Source of the DNA: Nitrososphaerota archaeon
GTDB lineage: Archaea > Thermoproteota > Nitrososphaeria > Nitrososphaerales > Nitrosopumilaceae
Reading direction: 5' to 3'
Assembly (NCBI GenBank): GCA_022573895.1
Contig: JACZTB010000012.1
Coordinates: 1 to 41,048, forward strand
DNA length: 41,048 nt
A model generated the notes under the pieces. The model had not been told where the DNA came from. It did no database searches and saw only the letters and a program-made list of their open reading frames with translations. Shown in pieces: positions 3,111 through 41,048 of the stretch. A program made the translations under genes and the position numbers. The stretch's first letter is position 1. Every line of letters starts with the position of its first letter.

Positions 3111-3776
3111 ATGACAATCACCACGAGTGAATGCTTTATTGAATTATCTAGTTTTGATGATTTAGCAAGATATGCTTGTGCATTTAGAGAATATCCAAGA
3201 AGAGTGTATTCTCAAGAATTTGATGGTTCAAGAATTATTTCAACTAGTTTAACTCTTGCAAACACTCTGTTGATTTTTTATGCTCAAATGCCAAAATCTG
3301 GTAGGTATATTTCATACCAAGTTAATGCAGGAAAAGAGACTTGTGAAATTGTAGAATCTACAAAAGATATCTCAAATTATGCACCTATTGTACATATGGA
3401 ATCAAAAATTTCCTCATTATCTGTAAAAACCAAAAAAATTTCTGATCAATTTTATCCAATTCAAGTTAAAGATTTGGGAAGTTTAGCACGATTAACATAT
3501 GATCCTGAGTTTCCAGATGAACAAAATCTTACTCTATATGCATTACCTCACAAAAATTCTTGGGTAATAGGATACATTACCCAATTAGAAATGGATGAAG
3601 TAATCTATAATTTCAATTATGTTGAATTAGATTCCGAACCTACTAGACATTTTATTAAATATCAGGGGAATCAAGGACGAGATCCAGTATTTTCAGATAA
3701 TTTTGATCATGGATATTCATATTTACCAGTCATCAAAATTAAAAATGAACATTCGATCTTTGGATTTTCAGATTAA
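3111..3776 (+). CDS. conserved-looking protein of unknown function
   Basis: 221 residues from the ATG at 3111; a TTG directly before it (3108) adds one residue. No signal peptide, membrane segment or recognisable motif. The composition is that of a mixed alpha/beta soluble protein rich in aromatic residues (many Tyr and Phe), with alternating hydrophobic stretches suggesting beta-sheet. I do not recognise the family. It follows the phasin-like gene by about 40 nt in the same direction and converges on the minus-strand gene pair 3792-4846 with a 15-nt gap. Confidence 0.75.
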   Translation: MTITTSECFIELSSFDDLARYACAFREYPRRVYSQEFDGSRIISTSLTLANTLLIFYAQMPKSGRYISYQVNAGKETCEIVESTKDISNYAPIVHMESKISSLSVKTKKISDQFYPIQVKDLGSLARLTYDPEFPDEQNLTLYALPHKNSWVIGYITQLEMDEVIYNFNYVELDSEPTRHFIKYQGNQGRDPVFSDNFDHGYSYLPVIKIKNEHSIFGFSD

Positions 3777-3791
3777 ATTTTAAACCTATTT

Positions 3792-4466
3792 CTAAGTTAA
3801 TTCTTTTATTTTCTTTCTTGATTCTTCAACTAATCGTTTTATAACTGGGATGTAAATTTCTGCAGCATATACAATTTCAATATCTTTGTATTCTTCAATT
3901 TCTAAAAATGCAGAAGCTATTACCTGATTTTCTCTTACTTTAGGCTCATTATTTTCACTTCTTTTACGATTTATGGTTTCTAAAAATATTGGTAATTGTC
4001 TTTTGACTTCAATTTCTAATTCTTCTTTTGAACATAATTTTTCATGACTCAAATTAACTTTGATCTGTTGATTAATATCATCTTCGTATCTATCTGACGC
4101 TCTGATCATGATTTTAATTTTAGGTAATTTATCAAATTTGTTCTTGAATTGACAGATTTTTTTAATGAAATTAGGATATGAATTTTCATGTTCCTGATTG
4201 TATCTGATTGAATACCATTCTGAAAATTTCATCGCATTTTGGTCATTTTTAATTTTTGCTTTTCCATCAAATTTTTTTTGTGAAATCTTTTCTGAAATAA
4301 ATAATCCAAAATCTCTATTTCCTTCCTCAAAAATCCCATTAAATATATCATTTACAGAATTTATGTATTCATTAAAAAAATAATCTACATAGTAAGGATC
4401 AGGATCGTATTGTTTAATCTGTTTTAGATATATTTCACAATCTTTTATTGTTTTTTCAATATTCAT
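3792..4466 (-). CDS. unknown soluble protein
   Basis: 224 residues, Lys/Glu/Ile-rich, mainly helical. It has a central charged region (about 120-160) and a C-terminal helix that is strongly charged (RLVEESRKKIKEL). No family recognised. Its ATG overlaps the stop codon of the upstream gene by one base (TAATG), so it forms a two-gene operon with 4466-4846 and is probably translationally coupled. The pairing of two unfamiliar proteins suggests a joint role, but nothing in either sequence shows what. Confidence 0.75.
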   Translation of the reverse strand: MNIEKTIKDCEIYLKQIKQYDPDPYYVDYFFNEYINSVNDIFNGIFEEGNRDFGLFISEKISQKKFDGKAKIKNDQNAMKFSEWYSIRYNQEHENSYPNFIKKICQFKNKFDKLPKIKIMIRASDRYEDDINQQIKVNLSHEKLCSKEELEIEVKRQLPIFLETINRKRSENNEPKVRENQVIASAFLEIEEYKDIEIVYAAEIYIPVIKRLVEESRKKIKELT

Positions 4467-36175: not shown

Positions 36176-36763
36176 ATGAAACTACGGAAAGCATCAATTA
36201 AACGAAGTACCAAAGAAACTAGCATTCAAGTATCTGTTAATCTAGATGGAACAGGAAAAACAAGCATCAAAACAGGCATTAATTTTCTTGATCACTTGAT
36301 TGTATCTTTTGGTAAACATAGTATGATGGATCTGAAAGTTGATGCAAAATCAAATGATGGAATTGAACACCACCTAATTGAGGATACTGCAATTACAATA
36401 GGACAAGCAATTGATAAAGCATTAAGCACAAGAAGTGGAATTACAAGATTTAGTTATGCATCTGTTCCAATGGATGAATCTCTTGCTGAAGCTTCAATTG
36501 ATTTAGTTAAGCGTCCATTTTGGAAGTTGACTTTGTCAATTAAACGAAATAAAATTGAAGACATCTCTAAAGAAGATCTAGAGCACTTTTTCCAATCGTT
36601 GCTGCAAAATCTGAATATCTGTGTTCACCTTACTGTAAAGTATGGTGAAAACGATCATCACAAAGTAGAGGCTGCCATAAAGTCACTTGCTGTAGCATTT
36701 AGAATGGCATCATCGTATGACAAAAAACAGAAAGGCATTCCAAGCACAAAAGGTTCAATGTAA
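36176..36763 (+). CDS. hisB: imidazoleglycerol-phosphate dehydratase
   Basis: 195 residues from ATG 36176; GTG 36167 is a longer alternative. Manganese-binding histidine motifs H-H-L-I-E-D near 60-65 and D-H-H-K-V-E-A near 160-166, plus F-L-D-H-L near 38-42; the final I-P-S-T-K-G is the usual end. Single-domain form, so the phosphatase half fused to HisB in some bacteria is absent. TAATG overlap with the next gene. Confidence 0.96.
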
Positions 36764-37092
36764 TGGTTAGTGTCGCAATTTTTGATTATGGTGCTGGAAA
36801 TATTTTCAGCCTGAAAAATTCACTTGAAAAAGCAGGAGCTTCAGTTGATGTAATTACTAGTTTTGACAAACCTAATGAATACTCTGGTTTACTACTTCCT
36901 GGTGTAGGAAACTTTGATCCTGCAATCAAAAGCATTACTCAATTTTCAAAAACTGGATTCAATGATTTCGTAAAAAACATTCCTGTTTTAGGAATTTGTC
37001 TTGGAATGGAGATGTTTTTTGAAAAAAGTGAAGAAGGAAAGGAAAAAGGCTTGGGAATTATGGACGGTGAGGTAATTGTTCTTCCACTATGA
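36763..37092 (+). CDS. hisH: HisH N-terminal half with catalytic Cys (split gene)
   Basis: 109 residues, the first half of the glutaminase subunit of imidazole-glycerol-phosphate synthase. I-F-D-Y-G-A-G-N near 6-13, P-G-V-G-N-F near 46-51 and the nucleophile Cys79 in L-G-I-C-L-G. It ends at TGA 37090-37092 after ...G-E-V-I-V-L-P-L, just where a normal HisH would run on into V-P-H-M-G-W-N. The next ATG overlaps the stop as ATGA in a different frame (minus one). Either two coupled subunits or a frameshifted gene. Confidence 0.85.
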   Translation: MVSVAIFDYGAGNIFSLKNSLEKAGASVDVITSFDKPNEYSGLLLPGVGNFDPAIKSITQFSKTGFNDFVKNIPVLGICLGMEMFFEKSEEGKEKGLGIMDGEVIVLPL

Positions 37093-37364
37093 AAGTACCT
37101 CATATGGGATGGAATAATTTAGAGATAAAAAAACCAGGTAAGCTTTTAGAAGGAGTTGAGAATGGTTCTTGGGTTTATTTTGTACACTCGTATAGAGTTA
37201 GACCAAATTCTGATGATGTAATCACTGCAGAATCTGATTATGGAATTAAAGTTCCAGCAGTAGTTGAACAAGACAACTTTTTTGGAACCCAATTTCATCC
37301 AGAAAAATCTAGCTCAGTAGGAAAAATAATGATAAAGAACTTTCTTGATGTGTGTAAAAAATGA
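37089..37364 (+). CDS. hisH: HisH C-terminal half with His/Glu of the triad (split gene)
   Basis: 91 residues beginning M-K-V-P-H-M-G-W-N, the normal mid-sequence of HisH. It has Y-F-V-H-S-Y near 30-35, and the remaining glutaminase residues H70 and E72 in Q-F-H-P-E-K-S. Joined to the previous half the protein would be about 200 residues, the usual HisH length, with one base-level frame change at 37089-37092. It overlaps hisA by 4 nt. If expressed alone it cannot hydrolyse glutamine without the Cys half. Confidence 0.85.
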   Translation: MKVPHMGWNNLEIKKPGKLLEGVENGSWVYFVHSYRVRPNSDDVITAESDYGIKVPAVVEQDNFFGTQFHPEKSSSVGKIMIKNFLDVCKK

Positions 37365-39552: not shown

Positions 39553-39602
39553 TACCCCTACATTTTTAAAGAAAATGAAAATTATATAAATATGTAGGGG
39601 TA
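39553..39602 (+). promoter_or_regulatory. inverted-repeat operator framing the Fic gene TATA box
   Basis: TACCCCTACAT (39553-39563) and its exact reverse complement ATGTAGGGGTA (39592-39602) are 28 bp apart. ATTATATAAATA at 39581-39592 is the TATA box, and the distance to the ATG at 39612 (about 25 nt) predicts a leaderless transcript. The right arm lies between the TATA box and the start, so a bound repressor would block transcription. The arms are G+C-rich in an AT-rich setting. A stem-loop in RNA is less likely because the left arm precedes the transcript. Confidence 0.6.
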
Positions 39603-39611
39603 ACTATTATT

Positions 39612-40493
39612 ATGGTAATAATAAAGAAGAAACTCCTCAAAGGCAAGATCTATTATTATCTTGAACACAGCATAAGGAAAGGTAAGAGAGTACAGAAGAA
39701 GGAGAAGTATCTAGGAAGAAAGATTCCTTCTAACATAGCAGAGATCAAGAAGGAGTTTGTTGATGAGATCAAGGAGGAATGGTATGTAGATATTGACAAG
39801 ATTAAGCAAAATTTCTCCAAAGAACAGAAGACGATACCAAGGTCTATCAAAGAAAAGGAGATGCAAAACTTTGCTACCCGATTCACTTATGACACGCAGA
39901 GGATAGAAGGCTCCACTCTTACCAGAAGGGAAACTACTGACCTTCTAGAAAAGGGAATTGCACCAAAAAACAAGCCCATGAAAGACGTACAAGAAGCAGA
40001 ATCTCACAGAGACCTATTCTATGAGATATTAAAATTCAAAAAAGAACTAACATTGCAGGTAGTACTGGATTGGCACTGGAATCTCTTCAATAAAACAAAA
40101 CCCGACATAGCAGGAGAGATAAGAAAATATCAGGTTGGAATAAGTGGAAGCAAATTCATGCCACCCTCTCCTGTTGAGGTATATCCAATGCTAACAGAGT
40201 TTTTCAAGTGGTACAGAAAGAACAAAGATAAACTTCATCCTATTGAGCTTGCAGCACTGGCACATCTGAGATTTGTAACAATACATCCATTTGGGGATGG
40301 AAACGGCAGAATTACAAGACTTGTCATGAATTTTATACTGAATAGAAAAAAATACCCAATGCTTGACATTCCATACGAGAGAAGAAACAGTTACTACAAT
40401 GCACTAGAAAGATCACAAGTCAAGAAAGATGAAAAGATATTTCTCAAGTGGTTTGTAAGGCGATACGTAAAAGAATACAAGCAATATCTATAA
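39612..40493 (+). CDS. Fic-domain protein (probable AMP transferase)
   Basis: 293 residues. Active-site loop H-P-F-G-D-G-N-G-R-I-T-R at 225-236, complete with His225 and Arg233. An inhibitory helix motif T-Q-R-I-E-G (T95, E99) precedes the core, so it is a class II Fic with built-in autoinhibition. The N-terminus (1-45) is very basic. Such enzymes AMPylate protein hydroxyls; the target is unknown. Codon use has more AGG/AGA and G+C than neighbours, compatible with transfer. It lies in the accessory region with an inverted-repeat promoter. Confidence 0.9.
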   Translation: MVIIKKKLLKGKIYYYLEHSIRKGKRVQKKEKYLGRKIPSNIAEIKKEFVDEIKEEWYVDIDKIKQNFSKEQKTIPRSIKEKEMQNFATRFTYDTQRIEGSTLTRRETTDLLEKGIAPKNKPMKDVQEAESHRDLFYEILKFKKELTLQVVLDWHWNLFNKTKPDIAGEIRKYQVGISGSKFMPPSPVEVYPMLTEFFKWYRKNKDKLHPIELAALAHLRFVTIHPFGDGNGRITRLVMNFILNRKKYPMLDIPYERRNSYYNALERSQVKKDEKIFLKWFVRRYVKEYKQYL

Positions 40494-40834: not shown

Positions 40835-40894
40835 ATATGTCCTACATCTAGGACATATGTCTTATATCTAGGACATGTATCATAAATATAGGAC
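40835..40894 (+). repeat. three 20-bp tandem repeats (operator-like) in front of a winged-helix gene
   Basis: Units start at 40835, 40855 and 40875. The first two differ at two positions; each ends CTAGGAC, the third ends ATAGGAC and is degenerate in its left part. Unit 1 with the start of unit 2 forms a perfect dyad TATGTCCTA-CATC-TAGGACATA. The array ends three bases before the ATG at 40898 and contains TATA-like AT stretches. It looks like multiple binding sites for a dimeric DNA-binding protein, most simply the product of the adjacent gene. Confidence 0.7.
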
Positions 40895-40897
40895 ACA

Positions 40898-41048
40898 ATG
40901 CAATTCCATAACTATCTAGAGCAGGCAGTTGGAAACAAACTAGCTATTAGCTTACTTCGTACTATGGTAAACTATCAGGGAAAGGTCTTTACTGTAAGAA
41001 GTTTAGCCAAAACAGCAAAGGTTTCACTTAATGAGACCGCTCTCACAA
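40898..41048 (+). CDS. winged-helix protein, N-terminal part (runs off the window)
   Basis: ATG 40898 opens a frame still open at the window end (50 codons). The sequence L-E-Q-A-V-G-N-K-L-A-I-S-L-L-R-T-M ... G-K-V-F-T-V-R-S-L-A-K-T-A-K-V-S-L is a winged helix-turn-helix, most like the regulatory N-terminus of proteins carrying an MNT-type nucleotidyltransferase domain. The rest cannot be seen. Its promoter contains the repeat array, suggesting autoregulation in the style of an antitoxin. Confidence 0.65.
   Translation, partial: MQFHNYLEQAVGNKLAISLLRTMVNYQGKVFTVRSLAKTAKVSLNETALT

Follow-up and report, generated by a model that had tools for sequence, protein, structure and literature searches.

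A tandem array of 20-bp dyads as the predicted operator of an archaeal HEPN/MNT toxin–antitoxin-type operon

Three 20-bp dyads abut head to tail immediately 5' of a winged-helix (wHTH) gene at the end of a thaumarchaeal contig, and are predicted, with a probability of roughly 0.8, to be the operator of an autorepressed HEPN/MNT toxin–antitoxin-type operon whose antitoxin has a DNA-binding domain of its own. The window, i.e., the whole stretch of DNA analyzed here, is an entire contig (C14) of 41,048 nucleotides and ends within this gene; the named relatives of the genome are Thaumarchaeota and Nitrososphaeraceae MAGs. The upstream gene product, wHTH fused to a minimal nucleotidyltransferase (MNT), would be the antitoxin, and the downstream gene product, a HEPN protein, would be the RNase toxin.

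The array lies at window positions 40837-40896, follows the pattern ATGTCCTA-N4-TAGGACAT and is made up of six 8-bp half-sites: ATGTCCTA (40837-40844), TAGGACAT (40849-40856), ATGTCTTA (40857-40864), TAGGACAT (40869-40876), the degenerate GTATCATA (40877-40884) and TAGGACAC (40889-40896). Predicted operator unit 1 (ATGTCCTAcatcTAGGACAT, 40837-40856) matches all 16 of 16 consensus letters and is a perfect dyad that extends to 10-bp arms (40835-40844/40849-40858). Unit 2 (ATGTCTTAtatcTAGGACAT, 40857-40876) matches 15 of 16, and unit 3 (GTATCATAaataTAGGACAC, 40877-40896) matches 12 of 16 and is separated by 1 bp from the ATG at 40898; no strand is assigned to the three units. The original prediction of three units with an exact 20-bp period, one of them a perfect dyad and the last beside this ATG, is borne out by these features, and only its span (40835-40894) needs to be shifted by 2 bp. 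When the sequence is compared with itself at lag 20, 34 of 41 positions are identical. In 20,000 dinucleotide shuffles, scored at all lags between 8 and 30, no value this high arose, and the array is the most periodic 61-bp stretch in the window. Taken alone, the octamer TAGGACAT shows no genomic enrichment (53 places versus 85 for the reversed control). A genome search for further copies of the array pattern (three mismatches or fewer) returned this site only.

The window contains the first 50 residues of the wHTH–MNT gene (40898-41048, + strand). The start of a second contig of the same genome, C56, overlaps the end of C14 by 127 bp with four mismatches (97% identity, below 100%) and carries on the reading frame; C56 is thus taken as the continuation of C14 or as a strain variant of that continuation. 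In C56 (locus L021), the wHTH–MNT gene continues over positions 1-582 and is directly followed by the HEPN gene (579-968), with a 4-bp overlap. The winged-helix gene is confirmed, and the partner domain anticipated beyond position 41048 proved to be the MNT. This gene content, with HEPN directly 3', supports the earlier idea of an autorepressed regulator or antitoxin. At the opposite end of the window, positions 1-127 share 93% identity with a segment inside another contig of the same genome (C30, 23372-23499).

The module proteins match the Pfam families PF05168 (24.4 bits, cut-off 22) and PF01909 (37.8 bits, cut-off 21). The PADLOC profile PDC-M05A matches the fusion protein with E=3.6e-17, and this match covers the wHTH region; PDC-M05B matches the HEPN protein of the adjacent gene (E=1.1e-6). 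An AlphaFold model of a relative (L019; pLDDT 89.8) comprises a wHTH with a recognition helix at residues 44-56 and a wing at 60-73, followed by an MNT fold. The wHTH half of the model is similar in fold to DNA-bound repressors, SlyA and PefR among them, and the MNT half resembles HEPN–MNT antitoxins (7bxo, 8xeo) and superposes on MntA structures. The HEPN protein of C56 is modeled as a helical bundle (pLDDT 92.7). The MNT motif GSX10DXD (G118, S119, D130 and D132) is invariant in 40 relatives; as the motif is intact, a nucleotidyl-transfer step is plausible.

The position of the array suggests how the operon might be regulated. The array extends from -61 to -2 relative to the ATG, a stretch in which a short-leader archaeal promoter would have to lie, so binding there would close the operon's own promoter. 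Dimers of wHTH–MNT would sit in a head-to-tail row on the 20-bp dyads, spaced by about two turns of the helix, and would thereby mask both the TATA/TFB region and the point at which a short-leader transcript would begin, such that the occupied array would shut the promoter. A drop in the antitoxin level, or capture of the antitoxin by the toxin, for example, might remove the protein from the operator and lead to derepression. The analysis establishes the array, the genes present, the conserved array and register, and the joint variation of half-site and recognition helix. Binding, repression, dimer occupancy, toxicity, the antitoxin role and any trigger are inferred, and self-silencing is proposed by analogy with AbiEi-type antitoxins acting at tandem inverted repeats (PMC7319586). 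A sigma-70 promoter scan gave no sense-strand match, the sigma-70 model being unsuited to archaea.

The roles of the two proteins might be reversed as in AbiE or MenAT, with the nucleotidyltransferase as the toxin, HEPN as an accessory or substrate-binding partner and the wHTH still acting as the autoregulator. AbiE indeed pairs a wHTH autoregulator bound to tandem inverted repeats with a nucleotidyltransferase toxin (PMC7319586), and MNT was assigned as the toxin in an early reading (PMC2701414). However, the wHTH and the nucleotidyltransferase of AbiE are separate proteins and the toxin is of the DUF1814 type, whereas here NTP_transf_2 is on the same chain as the wHTH, and Pfam gives no DUF1814 match in the module proteins. 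Also, the RNase motif RX4H is kept in the HEPN proteins, each of the 26 aligned relatives having R59 and H64, and HEPN is the toxin in the tested class I HEPN/MNT pairs (PMC7641770). Reversed roles are considered unlikely.

Further support for an autorepressed operon comes from relatives of the module, which a profile search located in 41 (about 10%) of the 400 genomes sampled from the order; a phylum-wide sample of 398 genomes gave no match outside this order. An automatic rule places a HEPN gene next to the wHTH–MNT gene in 29 of 44 relatives, and inspection by eye does so in more; in the others it is missing or broken. Most relatives have 20-bp-spaced dyads upstream of the start codon: lag 20 is within the best three of 32 lags upstream of 40 of 46 genes, some of which are close copies, and the periodicity is weak or absent in several (e.g., L085, L086, L048 and L081). 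The ten genes with TAGGACAT-type sites, that of the window included, have two to five clear units each, and in eight of them no more than 0-1 nt separates the array from the ATG. Among 42 same-type pairs, whose proteins are 50-77% identical, upstream identity is 0.36-0.49 between -60 and -1, compared with a background of 0.24-0.29 beyond -60.

The half-site sequence changes along with the DNA-reading helix of the protein. Sites of the TGGTAG/CTACCA/ACCATATGG type accompany 16 of 16 proteins with a recognition helix starting HPE or HPQ and 0 of 24 others, and sites of the GGACA/TGTCC type accompany 15 of 16 with the helix [NSA]E.A[LV] and 0 of 24 others, the operator classes having been defined after inspection of the sequences. 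When mapped on a tree of MNT-half sequences alone, the HPE helix type and its operator type require three changes each, and the NETAL-type helix and its operator type require five each; the phylogenetically independent contrasts number two to three and one to five, too few for a significant sign test. Four genomes have two modules (G298, G270, G311 and G165), and in each of these the two operator types differ and each fits its own helix.

This co-variation bears on the possibility that a different regulator, such as a global repressor or a viral protein, is the main protein to bind the array, with the encoded wHTH serving another purpose. That half-site type tracks the module's own recognition helix, even between two modules of one genome, argues against such a regulator, as does the single array in the window's genome, and this explanation is judged quite improbable. 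It draws on sites that occur without the gene. The array pattern (three mismatches or fewer) is present in 16 of the 400 genomes: upstream of a wHTH–MNT gene in ten, as an orphan in three, and as a single weak match in three, the last being at the level of the reversed control (six matches). Repeats are thus not widespread away from a regulator: a convincing array is present in 13 genomes, and in 10 of these it lies immediately 5' of the wHTH–MNT gene. The orphan TAGGACAT arrays, all three without the family-1 wHTH–MNT gene, comprise four near-perfect units beside an MFS gene (G321, L089 about 3600-3677), two units before a Fic gene (G340, L091 about 2767-2793), and two units about 60 bp upstream of a wHTH–MNT module of a second family (G228, L090 about 3946-3983). 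A small, virus-like contig that bears a terminase (G270:C199) has an array-like double dyad within one of its ORFs (L092, about 2879-2916); this site would also favor another or viral regulator, and may have arisen by chance.

The second wHTH–MNT family (L098-L107) has sites of a different kind. In every member seen, the dyad TGTTGTATAAATACAACA or a similar one directly overlaps the start codon, and most members have a TTTAAGT-like TATA element some 25-30 bp 5' of the ATG. The combination of start-codon dyad and TATA-like element suggests that these modules are leaderless and self-regulated. The G228 array was considered as an operator of this family and rejected, because the other members have the different dyad and no such array; it probably represents a relic or a site of foreign origin.

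It is highly improbable that the dyad is an RNA element, or terminates transcription of the upstream Fic gene, instead of serving as an operator: unit 1 was scored as a terminator-like hairpin with a T-rich stretch behind it, but the units are tandem, are in a fixed 20-bp register to the downstream ATG and are kept in relatives, and an Rfam search gave no match. The Fic-family gene itself (39612-40493, + strand; Pfam Fic E=4.5e-23) provides context only. Just 5' of its start, window positions 39553-39602 form a long dyad, TACCCCTACAT...ATGTAGGGGTA, with 21-nt arms that are 86% complementary, and the Fic relative in G340 (L091) has a long dyad of different sequence, TTACCCACTGCAT...ATGCAGTGGGTAA, at the same place.

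Iteron replicons typically have direct repeats of about 20 bp beside a winged-helix gene, a layout that the array resembles, but the idea that the repeats are plasmid or mobile-element iterons, recognized by a replication initiator of the winged-helix type, can virtually be discarded, because the sites are dyads, the second half of the protein is a nucleotidyltransferase with no Rep domain, HEPN follows, the array and the Fic gene come after a chromosomal his operon in the window, and searches of phage, plasmid and viral-contig collections returned no relative (50,697 phage and 72,556 plasmid records). The hisH gene appears to be split into two overlapping ORFs (109 and 91 aa; window 36763-37364), which suggests a frameshift or a sequencing error.

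The predicted self-silencing operon has counterparts among known systems. As judged from profile matches of both proteins and from the same two-gene layout, the gene pair belongs to the PADLOC candidate defense system PDC-M05. PDC-M05 consists of a nucleotidyltransferase (M05A) and a HEPN protein (M05B), and is an archaeal-enriched candidate phage-defense system with an unproven antiviral role (PMC12988326). The literature searched gave neither an operator nor a mode of regulation for PDC-M05; the predicted operator arrays and the link between helix and half-site are added here to the system as published.

The module has some, but not all, of the defining features of the type VII HepT/MntA system, represented by Shewanella SO_3166/SO_3165 (PMC7641770). 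Adjacent HEPN and MNT genes, GSX10DXD and RX4H are shared. Unlike in type VII, the MNT has an N-terminal wHTH and a predicted operator, and the NCBIfam MntA_antitoxin score, obtained for relative L019, is 27 bits, below the curated cut-off of 60. MntA AMPylates a HepT tyrosine located two residues after the RX4H histidine (PMC7641770). This tyrosine (RX4HXY) is present in 0 of 26 HEPN relatives, where the position is usually D or E, and another tyrosine elsewhere, Y99 (EYQP), is invariant instead. The class II HEPN/MNT pairs share the Pfam families PF05168 and PF01909 with the module, but RX4H, which is invariant here, is unreported in class II toxins (PMC7641770).

In the type IV system AbiE, the wHTH antitoxin AbiEi and its counterpart Rv2827c are likened to wHTH–MNT in silencing an operon via tandem inverted repeats, two of 23 bp in abiE and four for Rv2827c (PMC7319586), silencing that is predicted here from sequence. 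The difference lies in the division of functions: AbiE has a separate antitoxin and a DUF1814 toxin, whereas wHTH and nucleotidyltransferase are joined here in one chain and the partner is HEPN.

Among predicted toxin–antitoxin pairs, HEPN/MNT has been called the most abundant. MNTs have been contrasted with typical antitoxins, which have a DNA-binding domain, and the MNT antitoxin has been described as being without one (PMC7641770, 2020); a 2009 survey proposed that a DNA-binding component is provided in trans for HEPN/MNT (PMC2701414). No description of operators for a wHTH–MNT antitoxin was found in the literature searched, which covered few subscription journals. As a tentative proposal, to which we give somewhat less than even odds, these modules might form a distinct HEPN/MNT class in which the MNT antitoxin is also the repressor of its own operon, so that one protein joins transcriptional and chemical control of the toxin; neutralization would depend on a residue other than the HepT tyrosine, perhaps the invariant Y99, or on binding alone, and paralogous modules would be insulated by joint switching of helix and operator. 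In the archaeal modules the missing DNA-binding component is fused to MNT, and dozens of relatives have predicted operators; the natural helix and half-site swaps of these modules offer a ready set for testing autoregulation, cooperativity and the insulation of paralogs.
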